From contig CP070771.1 of the NCBI GenBank assembly GCA_020345785.1, forward strand, positions 1,193,429 to 1,200,588: a stretch of 7,160 nucleotides of DNA. The letters run 5' to 3'. Both the position numbers and the translations under genes were made by a program. The notes beneath the pieces were generated by a model. That model was given only the letters and a program-made list of their open reading frames with translations, made no database searches and was not told the origin of the DNA. Shown here piece after piece: positions 3-7,041 of the stretch (positions are counted from its first letter, which is position 1; each line of letters opens with the position of its first letter). The stretch comes from Desulfobacterales bacterium (GTDB lineage: Bacteria; Desulfobacterota; Desulfobacteria; Desulfobacterales; JAFDCJ01).

Positions 3-485
3 ATCGACCGGTTTTATCAGGTGGTCTATCCTCAATTCGGGTTTAGAGATCAAGCAGCAAACGATAAGGAGATCCCTCTCCAGGAGCAGGTTTTGATTTT
101 GCATTACATGATGGCCCGGGAAATTCCGTCCCCGGCCGGCCACTGGATATCGTACCGGGAGATTCCCGGTGCAGCGTTTTATTTCGGCGCATTTGTAAAA
201 CGGGCGGTGGAGCCCTTCAAAAAGGTATTCAGCAACAATATGGCCGGATTTGCCAAGGCCGCACAGAAGCTGAAGGCGACAGAAATTGATAGCGGTGATG
301 CGGCTTTTGAATTCAGGGTTCTGCCGGCCGTATCCCTGCAGCTGATTCTGTGGGGCGGCGACGATGAATTTCCGGCCGAGGCCAACATTCTATTTGATAA
401 AAACATCGGTCAGATCCTCTCGCCGGAAGATGTGGCATGGCTGGCGGGTATGGTGGTGTATCGGCTGATGGCGCTGGCGCGCTGA
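3..485 (+). CDS. DUF3786 domain protein, C-terminal part (5' end outside window)
   Basis: The reading frame is open from the left edge (position 3) to TGA at 483-485, giving 160 codons without a start that must be real; the GTG at 21 is internal to the conserved region and has no ribosome binding site, so the gene very probably begins upstream. The protein matches the DUF3786 pattern as I know it: a segment reading QVLILHYMMA, then GHWISYREIPG, an aromatic stretch AAFYFGAFV, a helix rich in Lys/Ala, and near the end SLQLILWGGDDEFPAEA followed by NILFD. DUF3786 proteins are soluble, about 200 residues long, and occur in Desulfobacterota and other anaerobes; their biochemical function is not established. 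No signal peptide or membrane segment is visible in the part present. The gene is followed by 510 bp of non-coding DNA, so it is the last gene of its transcript. Family assignment is fairly secure; function is unknown. Confidence 0.8.
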   Translation: MDRFYQVVYPQFGFRDQAANDKEIPLQEQVLILHYMMAREIPSPAGHWISYREIPGAAFYFGAFVKRAVEPFKKVFSNNMAGFAKAAQKLKATEIDSGDAAFEFRVLPAVSLQLILWGGDDEFPAEANILFDKNIGQILSPEDVAWLAGMVVYRLMALAR

Positions 486-549: not shown

Positions 550-770
550 ATAAAAACTCCAAATTCCAAGCACCAAATCTCAAACAAATCCCAATAACCA
601 AAATTCCAAATTTCAAACAGATGATCTTTTCACGATCGTGCCCAATAACCTCATTATCCTCGAATAGGGTCTACGAAGCAATGCGATAGAACTGCCGTGA
701 ATGTTTTGGTTATTGAAAATTGGAATTTGAGATTTAATTGTAATTTGGTGCTTGGAATTTGGAATTTTAT
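550..770. repeat. 221-bp imperfect inverted-repeat element with AT-rich arms
   Basis: The left arm (about 550-617) and right arm (about 704-770) are reverse complements with indels. Two perfect blocks fix the alignment: the 20-mer at 559-578 (CCAAATTCCAAGCACCAAAT) is the exact complement of 743-762, and the 12-mer at 592-603 (CAATAACCAAAA) is the exact complement of 704-715. The blocks occur in the same order in both arms but are 13 bp apart on the left and 27 bp apart on the right, so the arms have diverged by insertion or deletion. The ~85-bp centre is unrelated unique DNA with a 10-bp palindrome. No transposase is encoded. Within each arm, words such as CCAAATTCC and CAAAT recur, giving a low-complexity, C/A-biased strand. 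It may be a MITE-like or REP-like dispersed element; I cannot tell from one copy. The 210 bp after it (771-980) contain no gene I would defend. Confidence 0.8.
631..640. other. Perfect 10-bp palindrome CACGATCGTG
   Basis: CACGATCGTG equals its own reverse complement and sits in the centre of the 221-bp inverted-repeat element. It could be a dimeric regulator's site, a cruciform centre, or chance; it does not extend beyond 5 bp per half. It is over 350 bp from the next start codon. Confidence 0.35.
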
Positions 771-981
771 TGTCTTACGAAAACGTTCGATGCAACTGGT
801 TGAGAGTTTACTTTGATGTTATTCCACCCCGATTGACTGCCTCCACCAACCATTTCCTTGAAAATCCCCTTCAGCTCTGGTATCTTCTTGACATCCGGCA
901 TTTTGCTGATGAATATGTGAATACTCGAATTGATTCATTTTAACCCATTTCTGGGATAAACTGACGATAAGATTCTATTCC

Positions 982-986
982 GGAGG
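982..986 (+). promoter_or_regulatory. Ribosome binding site that supports a TTG start at 996
   Basis: GGAGG at 982-986 lies 9 nt before TTG at 996-998. This is an ideal Shine-Dalgarno sequence and spacing, and the next in-frame ATG is many codons further on (1089) without such a site. It is the main reason for choosing the uncommon TTG as initiation codon of the 1393-residue protein. I see no convincing -35/-10 pair in the preceding 100 bp. Confidence 0.75.
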
Positions 987-995
987 TCGCCACTT

Positions 996-3900
996 TTGAA
1001 AGTAAAATCCAAAGCCCTCGAGGTCAACTTGGCCGATTATCATGTTGACGTGACAATTGATGCCAAGTATTCCATCTTGCAGGAGGTAATGTCTAAATAT
1101 TACGGCTTGTTGGAAGGATTGAATACATTTCTAAAAGAGCTGTCTCATCCCTACCTTAATTGGCGGTTTGTTGTTACGGAGGCCCGTAAATATGCGCTGG
1201 AATATTTTCATTTGCTCAAGAAACATCCCGGGGGACCCGAGGCCGCCCGACTGTTGGTCGATATTTTTATCCGAGCATTGGAAGAGTGCAAAGAAGATGA
1301 GGTAAAAAGAGATTCGGTCGACAACATCTTGTTGTTTATTCAGAAAGCAATTAACGATTCCGGACGGAGATTTGAAAATTTTCAGCCGATCATCGATGCC
1401 GCTCTTGAAAAGATCCACCGTCTCCCAGATCACCTCTTTTCTTTATTTGTAAGAAGCTATTATGGGATTAACCGTTTGGCGCGCGCTTATCTGAGCAGTT
1501 CGGGACGGGCCGACACGAATTTCAGAACCTTAAATCTTTTGCTGATCAAATATTATGACCACATTTACGGTTACTGGCTCGAAGTGGAAGATCCCCAGAT
1601 CTGGTTTGAAAAAGAAACGGATATGAACTTCGCTGGAGACCAATTCGCTGAATTTTTTAAACCTATATCCCATCATCAGCTCAATGAATGGCAGGTCCAG
1701 CTTAAATCGAGGATGAAGGATCAGTCGATCGATTCAAGGGAAATGTTGTTACGGTTGCTGGAACTTCCCGGTTTCGGACAGATTGTAGAGACCTACCGCC
1801 AAATTCCGCGTCAACTGTTGCGAAAATTTGATAATAAAGGACGTAGTCACCACCTTAAATTAATTTTCCTTTTTCGAATCATGAATCTCAGGGGATTAGC
1901 CCTTATCCACGAGGAAACGCTGCGGGATATCAACCAGACCCTGACCTGGATTATCGAGAACGAAAATTATCGCAATATCGAGTACCTGATCCGCAAAACC
2001 TTTACCATCCTTAAAGAACAAACCCGCATGTATCCAGCAACAGCATTGAATTGCGTGCTGAACATGGGCAAAGGTGTCTTCAAAACCGATGAAATCGATC
2101 TGGTTAATTTTTTTATCAATGGCGTTATCGATCTGGGTTTTCAGGCGCCCATGCTTCAGGGCGTGGATAATGAATGGCAAATTAGAGTCAACAGCACCCA
2201 TATTCAGAATGTCAGAACCTGGCTGGAGCTGATTGAGGTCAACCCGAAATGGTCAACCCGATTGCTATCCGGCTTGATTATCCATCTTTCGATCTGTGGT
2301 GTCTTTATAAAAGATATTGATCTTTTTCCCCGTGATATCACCCGTTTTTTAGACAGCAATATCGAACCGGTTTTTAATCTTGCCAAACAGCTCACCCGGC
2401 TTCTTCCGGCTTTCTTTAATGATATCGGTGCCGAAGGAAAATTAAGAGACATATCCACCCGGATCGATGAGATCACGCATCGCCGGGACAGACTTATCCA
2501 TTTTCTACGAAAACAGAGCCACGTTGAAAGCAGCAACCGGATCGTGTCGTTTATGGAGGCCACCCTGCATTTCTGGCAGACTCGCGACAAAACCCCTTTG
2601 GTACCTTATATTCCTCCTTCGATCTATGATGAAATCGATACCAGAGGACCTTTTATCGACGGCGTCCATAAGATTTACTCTCACTTGGCAGATCAAGGCG
2701 TCAAACTTCTTCATGATTTACTGACCCTTTCTGAAAAAAAAATAGAAAGCCTGATGGACCAGATTGCCGATGTCCCGGATGTTGATCGGGAACGCGTCTT
2801 TTTATCCATTGCGTTTTATAAATTGCTCCATCAAAAATACAGGTTTGATTACCATGAGCTGAAAGGTTATATTACCCAGTTGCGCACCGAAGCCCTGCCG
2901 GAATTAAATCGAGTAGAAAAAGCGCTGGCGGAACCTGACATCAAAATCAGGCTATTTATGCTGTTGGATTATCTTGAAAAACTAAAAAATATTATTACCT
3001 CCGATCAGTCATTTGAAATTAAAGAAAATATATATAAGAAAAGACATATCACGATTGATATCCCCTCCATGTACGGCAGTTATCACGAGATGAAATTTGA
3101 CTGCCTGGGGCTCACATTTCGACTGGAAGCCCTGGTGAATGTGCTGCTCGAAGAACTTATTCGAGATATTGATCTGAGCTTGATAACCAAAGCCACCTTT
3201 TATCAGATTTACAGCCTTTTGAGGCTGTTTGATAAAGCAATGAAGCTGGACGGGATATCATCGGTTGAATTTGAGCGACAACTGGAATTTTTAGCCCATT
3301 CGCTGGAAGTCAAAGGATTTACCCAGACTCAGTATCTGGATATATTTAAAGGCTTCGCCCTGGCGGTCAAAAACATTATCCACGATTATTTTCACAATAT
3401 TCACGGCCAGAACCTCAACCGCATCCTATCACAGCTTTCCGCCGATCAGATCCTGCCGAAATTTCTTCCCAGAGAGCAGCTGGATGATAGTGAGAAACTG
3501 GATCACCGGGTGTCCGAAATGTTTTTCCGGGAGCAAATTGCACTGTCTCTGGGACTGCAGCAACTTGATTTGTTTTTGAGCAAAATCCTGACCACCCTGT
3601 TCCAGCAATCCTATAAATTGCCGAAAGATCTCCTGCACCAACTGCTGCTGTACGACCCTCAAAATGCCATGACCCCGATCCACTCCGCCAGGAGTCGGGT
3701 GACCGGCATCATTCACCTGGGTAACAAGGGGCTCAACCTGGTCAAATTGAAAAATTTCGGGTTTCCCGTGCCGCCCGGATTTATCATCACGACCGAAGTC
3801 TTTCGCTGCCGCCGGGTCATTGCCAGCTATCCGCCGGCGACTGAAAATTTTAAGGAGCAGGTCGCCCAGAATATCGCTAAATTGGAAAAAATAACCGACA

Positions 3901-5177
3901 AAAAATTTGGCGATCCCAAGAACCCCCTGCTGTTATCGGTGCGCAGCGGCTCTTCGATTTCCCAACCCGGCATGATGGATACCCTGCTGGACGTGGGCAA
4001 CAACGAAGAAATTACCGCCGGAATCGCCGCCATAACCGGCAACGCCTGGTTTGCCTGGGACAATTACCGCCGGTTTCTGCAATGTTATGGAATGGCATTC
4101 GGACTCAAACGCGATGATTTCGATGCGATTATCAGTGAACAGAAAACCAAGCAGGGAATTCCCTACAAAAGAGAATTCACGGGCGAGCAAATGAGGCAGG
4201 TGGCTTTGATGTACAAAGCCCTGATTCAGGATTCGGGGGTTGAAATTTTGGAAACCCCGTTTGAACAGCTCTACATGGCGATTAAGAGCGTTTTGGATTC
4301 ATGGGAATCCGCCAAGGCCGGTGCTTACCGTCAAATTATGGGAATTTCAGACGACTGGGGTACCGCCGTTACGGTTCAGACAATGGTGTACGGTAATATC
4401 TCTCAAGAATCCGGCTCCGGGGTCATATTTACCCACAATCCCAGGTGGACTGGAGACACCCTAAAATTGTGGGGCGACTTCACCATCGGCAATCAAGGCG
4501 AGGATGTTGTCTCCGGGTTGGTCAGAACCAATCCCGTATCGATATTTCAGCAGGAAATTGAAATGCGGGCTACAGATATCACGCTGGAAACCCATTTCCC
4601 GAAAATTTATCATGCCTTAAAAGAATGGGCGCATGATCTCATTGACGAGAAAAAATGGAGTCCTCAGGAAATGGAATTTACCTTTGAAAGCCCGGCGGTA
4701 AAAGATTTGTATCTGCTTCAAACCCGTGATCTGGCCATCCGTGAGCGCAAAAAAGCACTGACCTTTGACTTTAAAAATAAAAACGAAGCTGTCTATCTGG
4801 GGCATGGGATCGGTGTGAGCGGCGGTGCGATGAGCGGACGACTGGTGTTTAGTCTTAAAGAGATTGAAGAATGGCGCATCAATGAACCGGAAACCAGATT
4901 AATACTTGCCAGAGCCGATACCGTGCCGGATGATATTCGAGAAATTCATGCCGCCGACGGATTGCTGACAGCCAAGGGCGGATTGACATCCCACGCGGCT
5001 GTGGTGGCACACCGGCTTGGCAAAACCTGTATTGTGGGGTGCGGCGATCTGATTTGTGATGAGCGGAAAAAAAGCTGTTCCTTCAATCAGACAGTTGTCA
5101 ACTCCGGCGATTATATCAGCATTGACGGCCAGGAAGGATCGGTCTTTGGAGGATTAATCAAGGTGAAGGAAACCTGA
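996..5177 (+). CDS. PPDK-like ATP-grasp/phosphohistidine protein with ~900-residue unknown N-terminal region, no PEP/pyruvate barrel
   Basis: Seen: 1393 residues from TTG. Residues ~905-1250 follow the PPDK ATP-binding region: LGNKGLNL (Lys911 matches the ATP-site Lys near PPDK position 22), SVRSGSS with Arg983, PGMMDTLL 991-998, WDNYRRF 1021-1027, DDWGTAV 1119-1125, SGSGVIFTHNP 1139-1149, GNQGEDVVSG 1165-1174, EMEFT 1225-1229 and LLQTR 1240-1244. Residues ~1269-1393 are the swivelling domain with GGLTSHAAVVAHR; His1333 is the predicted phosphorylated residue. The protein ends there, so the C-terminal TIM barrel that binds PEP/pyruvate in PPDK (normally ~870 residues in total) is missing. Residues 1-~900 look mainly helical and soluble, with no motif I recognise, no signal peptide and no membrane segment. 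Family knowledge: glucan water dikinase and rifampicin phosphotransferase also combine ATP-grasp and His domains with a different acceptor module. Inference: ATP-dependent autophosphorylation of His1333, then transfer to an unknown acceptor, perhaps bound by the N-terminal region. A regulatory or PEP-sensing role is an alternative. Domain calls are secure; substrate is unknown. Confidence 0.9.
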   Translation: MKVKSKALEVNLADYHVDVTIDAKYSILQEVMSKYYGLLEGLNTFLKELSHPYLNWRFVVTEARKYALEYFHLLKKHPGGPEAARLLVDIFIRALEECKEDEVKRDSVDNILLFIQKAINDSGRRFENFQPIIDAALEKIHRLPDHLFSLFVRSYYGINRLARAYLSSSGRADTNFRTLNLLLIKYYDHIYGYWLEVEDPQIWFEKETDMNFAGDQFAEFFKPISHHQLNEWQVQLKSRMKDQSIDSREMLLRLLELPGFGQIVETYRQIPRQLLRKFDNKGRSHHLKLIFLFRIMNLRGLALIHEETLRDINQTLTWIIENENYRNIEYLIRKTFTILKEQTRMYPATALNCVLNMGKGVFKTDEIDLVNFFINGVIDLGFQAPMLQGVDNEWQIRVNSTHIQNVRTWLELIEVNPKWSTRLLSGLIIHLSICGVFIKDIDLFPRDITRFLDSNIEPVFNLAKQLTRLLPAFFNDIGAEGKLRDISTRIDEITHRRDRLIHFLRKQSHVESSNRIVSFMEATLHFWQTRDKTPLVPYIPPSIYDEIDTRGPFIDGVHKIYSHLADQGVKLLHDLLTLSEKKIESLMDQIADVPDVDRERVFLSIAFYKLLHQKYRFDYHELKGYITQLRTEALPELNRVEKALAEPDIKIRLFMLLDYLEKLKNIITSDQSFEIKENIYKKRHITIDIPSMYGSYHEMKFDCLGLTFRLEALVNVLLEELIRDIDLSLITKATFYQIYSLLRLFDKAMKLDGISSVEFERQLEFLAHSLEVKGFTQTQYLDIFKGFALAVKNIIHDYFHNIHGQNLNRILSQLSADQILPKFLPREQLDDSEKLDHRVSEMFFREQIALSLGLQQLDLFLSKILTTLFQQSYKLPKDLLHQLLLYDPQNAMTPIHSARSRVTGIIHLGNKGLNLVKLKNFGFPVPPGFIITTEVFRCRRVIASYPPATENFKEQVAQNIAKLEKITDKKFGDPKNPLLLSVRSGSSISQPGMMDTLLDVGNNEEITAGIAAITGNAWFAWDNYRRFLQCYGMAFGLKRDDFDAIISEQKTKQGIPYKREFTGEQMRQVALMYKALIQDSGVEILETPFEQLYMAIKSVLDSWESAKAGAYRQIMGISDDWGTAVTVQTMVYGNISQESGSGVIFTHNPRWTGDTLKLWGDFTIGNQGEDVVSGLVRTNPVSIFQQEIEMRATDITLETHFPKIYHALKEWAHDLIDEKKWSPQEMEFTFESPAVKDLYLLQTRDLAIRERKKALTFDFKNKNEAVYLGHGIGVSGGAMSGRLVFSLKEIEEWRINEPETRLILARADTVPDDIREIHAADGLLTAKGGLTSHAAVVAHRLGKTCIVGCGDLICDERKKSCSFNQTVVNSGDYISIDGQEGSVFGGLIKVKET

Positions 5178-5178
5178 T

Positions 5179-5234
5179 GGGTGCCGGGTTGCGGGTTGCG
5201 TGTTGCGTGGTTCGGGTTGCGGGTTGCGGGATGC
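5179..5234 (+). repeat. Phased G-rich heptanucleotide array starting at the stop codon
   Basis: Eight consecutive 7-bp units run in perfect register: GGGTGCC, GGGTTGC, GGGTTGC, GTGTTGC, GTGGTTC, GGGTTGC, GGGTTGC, GGGATGC. The first unit begins 2 nt after the TGA of the dikinase-like gene, so the array forms the start of its 3' untranslated region. Decay continues to about 5261 with GGTTGAGGGTTCAGAGG. All units are G-rich on the + strand. The six GGG runs fall in two groups of three with 4-nt loops, separated by 18 nt, so a G-quadruplex with one long loop is conceivable. Heptanucleotide tandem repeats are known in other bacteria (for example the STRR repeats of filamentous cyanobacteria); their role is unclear. 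Confidence 0.85.
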
Positions 5235-5315
5235 GAGTGTCTTAGGTTGAGGGTTCAGAGGCAAGCTGGAATTGAATAATGAATATTGAAAATTGAATAT
5301 TTGTGGATGTCGCTC

Positions 5316-5449: not shown

Positions 5450-5458
5450 ATGATGGAC

Positions 5459-6715
5459 ATGACAAATGCCGGTAGCTCTGGGTTGAAACTTGGCGTCAAC
5501 GGCTTTGGCCGGATCGGTAAACTGACATTATGGCACCATGTCGCGCGTAAATACTTTCATGAAATCGTTGTCAACATCGGCCGCCAGGTAGGTACATCTA
5601 TCGAGGATATCGCGCACTATGTTGAGAGAGATTCGACCTATGGTTGGCTGCATGGATATATTTACGGCCACAAAGGGCAGCCGGTTATCAGTGATCTGAA
5701 TGAAGCCGACGGTTCGATGGTCATTGACGGCACCAAAGTTTGTTTCTTAAGAAAGCATCGGGATCCGGCCGAAATCGGTTGGGATCAACATGATGTGCGG
5801 CTGGTGGTCGATACGACCGGTCAATTTCTGGATCCGAACCTGGGATTGGACAACGCGAAGGAAACCATCAGAGGTCATCTGGCCTGCGGGGCGGATAAAG
5901 TAATTATTTCCGCCCCCTTTAAGCCCAAGGACAAAAGCGCCCCCACACCGGAGGATGCCGTCACGACCGTGATGGGAATTAATACCAATGATTATGATCC
6001 CAGACGTCACAAAATCATATCCAATGCCTCATGTACCACCACCTGTTTGGCACATATGATGAAACCTCTGATTGATGCCTTTGGTCCCAAAAAAATAATG
6101 TCTGCATCGATGGCAACAGTGCATGCCGCCACAGGTTCCCAGGAAGTATTGGATCGGCTGCCCAAATCCGGCAAAACCGATTTGCGCAAGAACAGAAGTA
6201 TTATGAATAACATCATCCTTACCACCACGGGAGCCGCCAGAGCGCTCAGATTGGTTATACCTGAAATGGAAGAAATTGCATTTATTGCTGAATCGGTAAG
6301 AATTCCCACCAGCACCGGATCGCTGATTATTCTTGTGATCAATTTACAGGAAGAACCGGGAGGGGAATATGTCCGCAGAGAAACGATCAACGATATCTAC
6401 CGGCAGGCTGCTGCCGACAGCCCGGAAGGCTATCTGTATTACACGGAGAAACAGAACGTATCCGGAGATATCATCGGCATGCCGCGGGTGGCCGCAACCA
6501 TTGAAGGTGCCGAAACGCACAGTCGGACCGCCGAGGCAACCATTGATCTTGCCAATATACCGGGGCTGCAGACAAATCTGCATTCTGATTCAGGAGGGAC
6601 GGTGGTCAGAATACCGGTAACCCAAGCAGTCATATACGGCTGGTACGACAACGAAATGGGAAGTTACGTCAACATGCTTGGCGATCGAACGGTGTCGGTC
6701 GCTGAACTTATGTAA
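5459..6715 (+). CDS. gap: Glyceraldehyde-3-phosphate dehydrogenase, long divergent form
   Basis: A cytosolic enzyme expected to oxidise glyceraldehyde 3-phosphate with phosphate and NAD(P) to 1,3-bisphosphoglycerate, or the reverse in gluconeogenesis. Seen, numbered from ATG 5459: Rossmann motif GVNGFGRIG at 12-20; catalytic Cys192 in SNASCTTTC (the usual form is SNASCTTNC); general-base His222 in ATVHAATG; TTTGAARA before the substrate site; Arg281 in VRIPT, matching the phosphate-binding Arg of the family; WYDNEMG at 395-401 near the C-terminus. Length is 418 residues against about 335 for ordinary GAPDH, the excess spread over several loops; Cys-His spacing is 30 rather than 27. Odd: after the second beta strand the usual Asn-Asp is replaced by Asn39-Ile40-Gly41-Arg42, so the Asp that favours NAD over NADP is absent. 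Related long GAPDH-like enzymes exist in other bacteria. The gene follows the dikinase-like gene by 281 bp in the same direction and probably has its own promoter. Fold and catalytic residues are clear; cofactor and physiological direction are not. Confidence 0.92.
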   Translation: MTNAGSSGLKLGVNGFGRIGKLTLWHHVARKYFHEIVVNIGRQVGTSIEDIAHYVERDSTYGWLHGYIYGHKGQPVISDLNEADGSMVIDGTKVCFLRKHRDPAEIGWDQHDVRLVVDTTGQFLDPNLGLDNAKETIRGHLACGADKVIISAPFKPKDKSAPTPEDAVTTVMGINTNDYDPRRHKIISNASCTTTCLAHMMKPLIDAFGPKKIMSASMATVHAATGSQEVLDRLPKSGKTDLRKNRSIMNNIILTTTGAARALRLVIPEMEEIAFIAESVRIPTSTGSLIILVINLQEEPGGEYVRRETINDIYRQAAADSPEGYLYYTEKQNVSGDIIGMPRVAATIEGAETHSRTAEATIDLANIPGLQTNLHSDSGGTVVRIPVTQAVIYGWYDNEMGSYVNMLGDRTVSVAELM

Positions 6716-6744: not shown

Positions 6745-7041
6745 TCATTCTGAAAATCCGTAATGGAATATTTCGTAGTGAGTCTCCCCGCCCAACAGTG
6801 CATCGATTTTCTTCTGAACCTTATTTCGGTCCTCGCTTTGCAGCCATTTTTTCCAGTCCTCCGATGACTGCCATGTGCTGATGACCAGAAATTCTTCAGG
6901 ATTATCCATACTTCTCAATGTTTCGCCCGTAATGTAGCCTTCCTGTGTCGCAGCGGATGCCCGCATTTGCCGGAAAAGCGGAATCATTTGTCTGGCCTTG
7001 TCTTGTGGGACTCTGCGTTTAATTAGAATTTTTACCGCCAT
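6745..7041 (-). CDS. Small ABM-fold (antibiotic biosynthesis monooxygenase-like) protein
   Basis: A 98-residue soluble protein. The pattern fits the dimeric alpha+beta-barrel (ABM) superfamily: first strand AVKILIKRRV at 2-11, a helix PQDKARQMIPLFRQMRA with the Pro-x-x-x-Ala start, the GYITGETLR turn and strand at 35-43, NPEEFLVISTWQS at 47-59, the helix SEDWKKWLQS at 60-69, and a final strand HYEIFHYG at 88-95. Members range from quinol monooxygenases and haem-degrading IsdG-type enzymes to proteins without known activity; I do not see the full Asn-Trp-His set of haem-degrading members, so no reaction is claimed. The ATG at 7039-7041 has AAAGGAG 6 nt upstream and a promoter candidate close by. 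It is transcribed toward the GAPDH gene, with 29 bp between the two stop codons. It appears to be a single-gene unit within the window. Confidence 0.82.
   Translation of the reverse strand: MAVKILIKRRVPQDKARQMIPLFRQMRASAATQEGYITGETLRSMDNPEEFLVISTWQSSEDWKKWLQSEDRNKVQKKIDALLGGETHYEIFHYGFSE

Follow-up and report, generated by a model that had tools for sequence, protein, structure and literature searches.

Glucan water dikinase transfers phosphate to an acceptor other than pyruvate and combines a carbohydrate-binding N-terminus with a C-terminal ATP-grasp. In rifampin phosphotransferase (RPH), an ATP-grasp and a swivelling His domain likewise serve a further acceptor domain which lies between the two (PMC4844700). 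The two-component dikinase HpeHI applies the same logic to a different acceptor and is split across two proteins and acts on aromatic compounds (PMC12167813). VadK (Rv1127c) is a relative of PPDK (EC 2.7.9.1) composed of an ATP-grasp and a His domain without the barrel; it is reported to autophosphorylate, to interact with enzymes of the methylcitrate cycle and to adjust the flux through that cycle (PMC13400623).

Here we analyse a stretch of 7,160 nucleotides from a Desulfobacterales genome (the window), containing the gene of a dikinase-like protein. Its product is confirmed to consist of an N-terminal part of about 905 residues that matches no known sequence family, followed by a PPDK-type ATP-grasp and a phosphohistidine domain, without the PEP/pyruvate barrel. 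Both domains share order and catalytic residues with PPDK, which has the barrel but not the additional N-terminal residues. The proposed use of a non-pyruvate acceptor recalls glucan water dikinase, although no carbohydrate-binding Pfam domain was found in the 1393-residue protein. VadK has the same two domains and likewise no barrel, but it measures about 50.5 kDa, without the N-terminal region, and belongs to the methylcitrate cycle (PMC13400623), whereas the genetic link here is to glyceraldehyde-3-phosphate dehydrogenase (GAPDH). Unlike in RPH, the candidate acceptor region is N-terminal, and residues 908-1392 follow the PPDK domain order end to end with no RPH-like acceptor domain inserted (phmmer). 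The reading in the earlier note is partly supported: the dikinase-type module without a PEP/pyruvate site stands, as does the accompanying N-terminal region of no known family, but barrel-less dikinases as such are already known through VadK (PMC13400623), and what is new is the variant with an N-terminal region and a GAPDH pairing. Among the titles listed by the literature search, none treats the dikinase-like protein together with GAPDH. No tie to this family was traced for the PPDK genes mentioned for Desulfotignum (PMC4046663).

The ATP-grasp and phosphohistidine module

In Pfam, PPDK_N matches best over residues 950-1253 (E 1.3e-30), while residues 1302-1381 match the PEP-utilizers mobile domain (E 3.9e-18); PF02896, the barrel, has no hit in the 1393 residues, and the protein ends only 12 residues past the mobile domain. 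With phmmer, residues 908-1392 align with chain positions 18-513 of the C. symbiosum PPDK 1kbl (E 6.6e-90), and His1333 pairs with chain position 454, which we take to be His455 of the literature. Conservation was counted over sequences no shorter than 1300 aa: 239 of the 240 proteins listed, 152 translations from the loci and the window protein, 392 in total and 386 of them distinct. K911, R983, E1227, Q1242, R1244 and H1333 are identical in 386/386 and E1225 in 385/386. The landmarks of the ATP half-reaction and the missing barrel, both pointed out before, thus stand, and loss of His1333, sought as contrary evidence, occurs in 0/386 homologues.

The module scores 402.8 bits on the NCBIfam PPDK model TIGR01828 (cut-off 843.45) against 87.6 and 78.3 bits on the PEP synthase models NF005057 (cut-off 598) and TIGR01418 (739.75), and the top PPDK match in the PDB reaches 305.9 bits against 62.8 for the top PEPS match (phmmer). 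While all three model scores are below cut-off, these values identify the module as PPDK type rather than PEPS type. Also below cut-off are NF004531, a 534-position 'PPDK' model that presumably covers the Rv1127c type (314.6 versus 456 bits), and the rifampin phosphotransferase model NF041857 (38.5 versus 999). The predicted structure of residues 200-1393 matches 1kbl (Foldseek E 2.0e-31, rmsd 3.0, 34% identity) far more closely than 2r82 (rmsd 14.7); we take 1kbl to represent the conformation in which the His domain has left the ATP site. The same model weakly matches HpeI (9goj, E 3.4e-4).

The TTG start (table 1) is supported by a conserved tail motif, SKALxxNL (S5 in 377, A7 in 383, L8 in 381 and N11 in 376 of 386 homologues), lying upstream of the start in the public record of the same protein, which has 1362 aa and begins MSKYYG at residue 32 of our frame. 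Of 7993 candidates scored, 1305 proteins reach E<=1e-3 (the best 120 being listed), and the frame spans 1368-1590 aa in 80 of the 84 positive genomes, those of G005, G069, G117 and G139 being shortened by contig ends or a split gene. When the C-terminal module alone served as query, the matches listed included 120 proteins of 361-849 aa, which we read as cut-off copies of the family, collectively from contig extent and 'partial' labels. Rfam gave no match anywhere in the window, and an anti-phage defence role was set aside, PADLOC returning a single weak row (E 0.0099). In one relative (L004), a member of the DUF3786 ORF cluster has CODH/ACS-type genes on one side and the dikinase gene on the other.

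Table 1. Features of the window, numbered from its first nucleotide
Feature	Positions	Strand	Remarks
DUF3786 protein gene, upstream neighbour	3..485	+	5' end beyond window; context only
Probable Shine-Dalgarno, ggaggt	982..987	+	8 bases upstream of TTG
Dikinase-like protein gene	996..5177	+	TTG start, 1393 aa
All-helical N-terminal region, residues 1-905	996..3710	+	modelled as a solenoid (AlphaFold2, residues 1-930)
Conserved N-terminal tail motif SKALEVNL, residues 5-12	1008..1031	+	S5, A7, L8, N11 kept in 376-383/386 homologues
Conserved block, residues 389-509	2160..2522	+	15 positions invariant in 386/386: G389 N399 H402 W409 D440 P471 G478 E480 G481 R484 T488 D491 R505 K506 H509
Conserved block, residues 682-700	3039..3095	+	between two strands; 11 invariant positions: K682 R683 H684 I689 P690 S691 Y693 G694 Y696 E698 K700
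PPDK-type ATP-grasp domain, about residues 908-1253	3717..4754	+	Pfam, phmmer, Foldseek
Phosphohistidine (swivel) domain, residues 1302-1381	4899..5138	+	His1333 codon at 4992-4994
Gap2, divergent GAPDH-like partner	5450..6715	+	421 aa; Cys195, His225, Arg284, Asn401

Family members carry the public names 'pyruvate,orthophosphate dikinase' and 'phosphoenolpyruvate synthase', which, judged by domain content, are unsupported. These names, together with the PPDK-like ATP half, would imply a PEP-forming enzyme in which a new N-terminal pyruvate site replaces the barrel, and one carrier, G018, indeed has no barrel match at all. Nevertheless, 15 of 16 genomes contain a further frame that combines PF01326 with the barrel PF02896, G018 has a GTP-type PEPCK, four named genomes each possess a PPDK-size barrel-bearing frame (913-1013 aa), and the genetic link is to GAPDH; we regard PEP formation as highly improbable, and these other PEP sources rule out the dikinase as the sole one in the 16 genomes. 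A barrel encoded separately beside the gene had been named as contrary evidence. When the barrels of two PPDKs were searched by blastp and tblastn against 165 neighbourhood loci (with flanks of 2 kb or more on either side in just 91/160), two loci (L038, L137) matched, through ORFs of 587 and 811 aa that exceed the length of a barrel alone, and the remainder gave none.

The N-terminal region

Searches of Pfam, NCBIfam and the PDB sequences gave nothing significant for the N-terminal region, Pfam being empty over residues 1-900, in line with the previous expectation of no known family. It models as an alpha-solenoid (AlphaFold2, residues 1-930, mean pLDDT 85.4), and fold searches with this model returned generic HEAT/importin-like solenoids only. 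Among the 386 homologues, 34 N-terminal positions are invariant; 25 of these belong to the set RKHDENQSTYWC and 26 fall within the two blocks of table 1, which could form a candidate acceptor site. The stretch 682-692 has pLDDT < 50.

The solenoid may also be viewed from a regulatory perspective. The protein might be a VadK-like kinase or scaffold for GAPDH, in which autophosphorylation of His1333 would report the ATP/AMP/PPi state while the solenoid, by binding the divergent and perhaps also the canonical GAPDH, would adjust flux or direction. We consider this a reasonable possibility: the predicted fold suits it, VadK itself is reported to autophosphorylate and to tune methylcitrate-cycle flux (PMC13400623), the dikinase gene lies between two GAPDH genes in some loci, and in L127 genes for PTS EIIA, RapZ and EIIA-man are close by. 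However, the strictly conserved, charged and flexible loop KRHIxxDIPSxYG suggests catalysis rather than docking, and VadK, at about 50.5 kDa, is too small for such an N-terminal region. The idea of a carbon-status sensor, raised in the earlier note, may also hold.

A divergent GAPDH partner and its genomic context

The best clue to function is the adjoining GAPDH partner, overlooked in the earlier note. Gap2, the next gene after the dikinase gene in the window, scores 327.8 bits on the type I GAPDH model TIGR01534, below the cut-off of 367.2, as do three relatives (335.3, 344.1 and 340.2). The catalytic Cys and His and the substrate-binding Arg (C195, H225, R284) are present in 92/92 GAPDH-like sequences chosen, like 40 canonical ones, on identity and length. 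After the second strand, all 40 canonical sequences have Asp, which we take to be the NAD-type residue, whereas the 92 have Glu (43), Gln (22), Asp (11) or others (16); the preceding residue is Asn throughout the canonical set (40/40) and Arg throughout the GAPDH-like set (92/92). An NADP-type Gap2, proposed from loss of the Asp, was dropped as these mixed counts decide nothing.

Of 297 Desulfobacterota genomes sampled, 84 carry the dikinase, 85 carry Gap2 and 83 carry both, so that Gap2 accompanies 83 of 84 dikinases (Fisher p 2.2e-70, a value that ignores shared ancestry, from one sampled phylum and with genome completeness not given). In 64 of the 83, Gap2 starts at most 4.5 kb downstream of the dikinase N-terminal match, about 1.5 kb of this distance being taken by the C-terminal module. 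The two genes might be merely co-inherited within branches of one phylum without shared function, given that related genomes share genes by descent and that the counts are uncorrected for phylogeny. This is unlikely, since the genes stay close in two arrangements (53 on the same strand, 11 convergent) and 19/83 genomes retain both without placing them side by side in the assembly, including G018 and G199, in which the two genes lie 2.4 Mb apart on one contig. The order gap-dikinase-gap2-pgk-tpi occurs in 8/55 loci, that of L127 being named through Pfam; five of the 165 loci (L045, L057, L068, L069, L098), whose main gene the simple gene caller missed, were excluded from the neighbourhood count.

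In three of the 28 dikinase-positive genomes searched (G032, G231 and G069), no PF02800 protein other than Gap2 was found. PGK is present in 30/30 genomes searched (29 dikinase carriers plus G138, outside the positive list), which rules out PGK loss as an explanation for the dikinase. In six small genomes (G231, G104, G132, G293, G184, G159; 1.6-2.0 Mb) the dikinase is one of just two PF01326 proteins found, and thus seems unlikely to be an optional extra. AprA exceeds its cut-off in 60/84 dikinase-positive and 57/213 other genomes; sulfate reduction as the source of AMP and PPi was discarded, this association being far weaker than the GAPDH pairing. For CODH/ACS (PF03598, at our own cut-off of E<1e-40) the counts are 65/84 and 120/213, which do not amount to a strict link.

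A proposed histidine phosphotransferase at the GAPDH step

We tentatively propose, with a probability of roughly 0.45, that this member of the dikinase superfamily is active as a histidine phosphotransferase and serves the GAPDH step, with gluconeogenesis as the likeliest setting. ATP would phosphorylate His1333, Pi taking part as it does in PPDK, to yield AMP and PPi, or the reverse, after which the His domain would swing to a putative N-terminal acceptor site to which residues 389-509 and the flexible loop 682-700 would both contribute. The acceptor would be a compound at the glyceraldehyde-3-P/1,3-bisphosphoglycerate/3-phosphoglycerate node that is also handled by the partner GAPDH, and the solenoid may dock this partner; either a metabolite such as 3-phosphoglycerate or GAPDH itself may receive the phosphate, and the gluconeogenic direction is likewise a supposition. 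In favour are the conserved ATP-site and His residues with PPDK- rather than PEPS-type scores, the closeness of the 200-1393 model to 1kbl rather than 2r82, the protein's own cluster of invariant polar residues in the N-terminal region (34 invariant positions), the near one-to-one and mostly adjacent Gap2, the five-gene order, the genomes with Gap2 as the sole GAPDH found, and the alternative PEP sources. On the other hand, the PGK of every genome searched makes 1,3-bisphosphoglycerate obtainable without the dikinase, the solenoid fits a scaffold equally well, the Fisher value ignores kinship in a single phylum, and sulfate reduction and CODH/ACS genes are associated too, though more weakly.

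In a more specific and rather doubtful form, the enzyme would be a 3-phosphoglycerate dikinase, converting ATP to AMP via phospho-His1333 and making 1,3-bisphosphoglycerate at the N-terminal site for handover to the docked divergent GAPDH. If so, it would represent a second, more strongly driven entry to gluconeogenesis beside PGK or, run backwards, a means of generating ATP at the GAPDH step out of AMP and PPi.

The public PPDK and PEP synthase names can lead metabolic models to miscount PEP-forming enzymes in the organisms that carry this gene. The near one-to-one pairing with Gap2 makes the role of the dikinase testable and hints at an undescribed phosphate-transfer step: that role would be either an extra reaction at a classic crossroads of sugar metabolism or phosphohistidine control of that crossroads.

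The dikinase-type module

The reading frame of the dikinase is real and the PPDK landmark residues assigned to it earlier are correct. Residues 908-1392 match PPDK through the end of the His domain, after which the protein ends, in agreement with the claim that the PEP/pyruvate barrel is missing; the sequence alignment pairs them with positions 18-513 of the C. symbiosum PPDK structure 1kbl (E 6.6e-90). HMM scores place the protein closer to PPDK than to PEP synthase, and under the curated cut-off for both. K911, R983, E1227, Q1242, R1244 and H1333 are identical in 386/386 distinct homologues with a length of 1300 aa or more, so that the loss of His1333 in most homologues contemplated by the earlier note is not seen, and E1225 is kept in 385/386. 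Because it was built from the window, 152 locus translations and the best 120 of each of two search lists (239 proteins), this set is biased to relatives of both queries. As a start, the TTG at 996 is preferable to that of the public record of the same protein (P0001), which begins at residue 32 and misses the conserved SKALxxNL tail (window 996-1088).

In an Olavius endosymbiont (L052) the dikinase gene carries an in-frame TAG at ~12755, reflecting assembly error, decay or readthrough. Partial relatives labelled Spirochaetales and Deferribacteres (P0265, P0359) are among the matches listed in the C-terminal-module search.

Features of the window
Feature	Position	Strand	Remarks
DUF3786 protein	3-485		
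Inverted repeat	545-619 and 702-776		before dikinase gene; arms of 75 nt with 73% complementarity and many TTGGAATTT units
Dikinase	996-5177	+	1393 aa
Short tandem GGGTTGC-like repeats	5185-5235		dikinase-GAPDH intergenic
Gap2	5450-6715	+	421 residues
Small antibiotic-biosynthesis-monooxygenase (ABM) domain protein	6745-7041	-	

Several close relatives have a member of the ABM protein's ORF cluster in the vicinity of the GAPDH gene, and in locus L004 one of the DUF3786-protein cluster is flanked by CODH/ACS-type genes on one side and by the dikinase gene on the other.

The GAPDH partner

The earlier note overlooked the gene directly after the dikinase, which encodes a divergent GAPDH (Gap2) paired with it in 83 genomes. 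Among 297 Desulfobacterota genomes, the dikinase N-terminus (E<=1e-3) occurs in 84, Gap2 (E<=1e-90, our choice to exclude canonical GAPDH) in 85 and both in 83, the exceptions being G117 (dikinase on a 3.5-kb contig), G009 (GAPDH fragment, 262 aa) and G082. For 64 of these 83 genomes, no more than 4.5 kb separates the N-terminal match from the start of Gap2 downstream, with both genes on one strand in 53 and convergent in 11. The other 19 have the pair on separate contigs (17 genomes) or at a distance of 2.4 Mb (2 genomes); a few loci have an intervening ORF (L149, L152). Across the 160 neighbourhood loci with a called main gene, a same-strand GAPDH gene follows within 700 bases in 86; 27 have less than 2 kb of downstream DNA, with GAPDH absent from it, 14 have 2 kb or more but lack a GAPDH match, and 33 place GAPDH elsewhere, including convergent cases and loci showing canonical GAPDH only. 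The order gap - dikinase - gap2 - pgk - tpi is found in 8/55 loci (L125, L127, L135, L137, L143, L150, L151, L154; families assigned by Pfam for L127). In L167-L169 and L171-L174, whose dikinases are akin to Thermodesulfobacterium and Caldimicrobium proteins, the dikinase gene and gap2 overlap or are separated by at most 14 bases. A canonical-type GAPDH upstream of the dikinase in L171 (8661-9662) has a drifting active site (SSCISNAAT vs ASCTTNCLA in others).

Gap2 is ~85 residues longer than canonical GAPDH. The WYDNE-motif Asn, the substrate Arg and both catalytic residues (Cys and His) are retained in all 92 chosen relatives. An invariant Arg precedes the NAD-type Asp column, whose counts (Glu 43, Gln 22, Asp 11, others 16) are compatible with either NAD or NADP preference. 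In three of 28 genomes searched (G032, G231, G069), Gap2 should be the working GAPDH, since this divergent, ~410-aa protein is the sole PF02800 member found there; the other 25 hold at least one more.

The N-terminal region

Residues 1-905 gave no significant sequence match in Pfam, NCBIfam or PDB, bearing out their earlier description as unfamiliar, and a PDB search with a 71-sequence profile likewise returned nothing significant. That this region accompanies the dikinase module also holds: open frames measure 1368-1590 aa in the 84 positive genomes, apart from four at contig ends or with a split gene (G005, G069, G117, G139). AlphaFold2 predicts residues 1-930 as nearly all-helical and mostly confident (mean pLDDT 85.4). 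Foldseek and VIA-align matched this model to HEAT/importin-like or designed repeat structures only, and therefore the fold gives no function. The 34 positions of residues 1-905 invariant in the 386 sequences are unevenly distributed, with 15 in residues 389-509 and 11 in 682-700. The latter block sits between two strands of the model, and 682-692 is one of its four segments with pLDDT <50. Charged, strictly conserved and predicted to be flexible, this loop could resemble an acceptor site.

Possible roles

The dikinase is probably not the source of PEP, because 15/16 genomes searched hold another frame with PF01326 plus barrel and the sixteenth, G018, a carrier of the dikinase with no PF02896 match anywhere in its genome, has a GTP-type PEPCK. 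Replacement of PGK is rejected, PGK being found in 30/30 genomes searched. Sulfate reduction (60/84 dikinase-positive genomes) and CODH/ACS (65/84) are associated, not obligate. In four small genomes (G032, G104, G132, G231) the PGK match and the PF01326 match of a PEPS-size barrel gene start ~4 kb apart.

There are published precedents both for dikinases that serve other acceptors (RPH, HpeHI) and for ones that lack the barrel, as here (VadK, Rv1127c), and this architecture with a GAPDH partner is absent from titles in the open-licence literature searched. The VadK report shows that a PPDK relative without barrel can autophosphorylate and proposes action via protein contacts (PMC13400623). 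The rival reading, somewhat less likely than the catalytic one, is a regulatory kinase of the VadK type with GAPDH as its target. The proposed catalytic mechanism is based on intact charging residues, the missing barrel, the N-terminal invariant cluster and the near one-to-one GAPDH partner. ATP and Pi would charge His1333, and the His domain would then swing to an acceptor site in the N-terminal region; the acceptor would belong to the triose-phosphate node and the direction would be gluconeogenic. We give a somewhat less than even chance, about 0.45, that the dikinase is an active histidine phosphotransferase at the triose-phosphate/GAPDH step.
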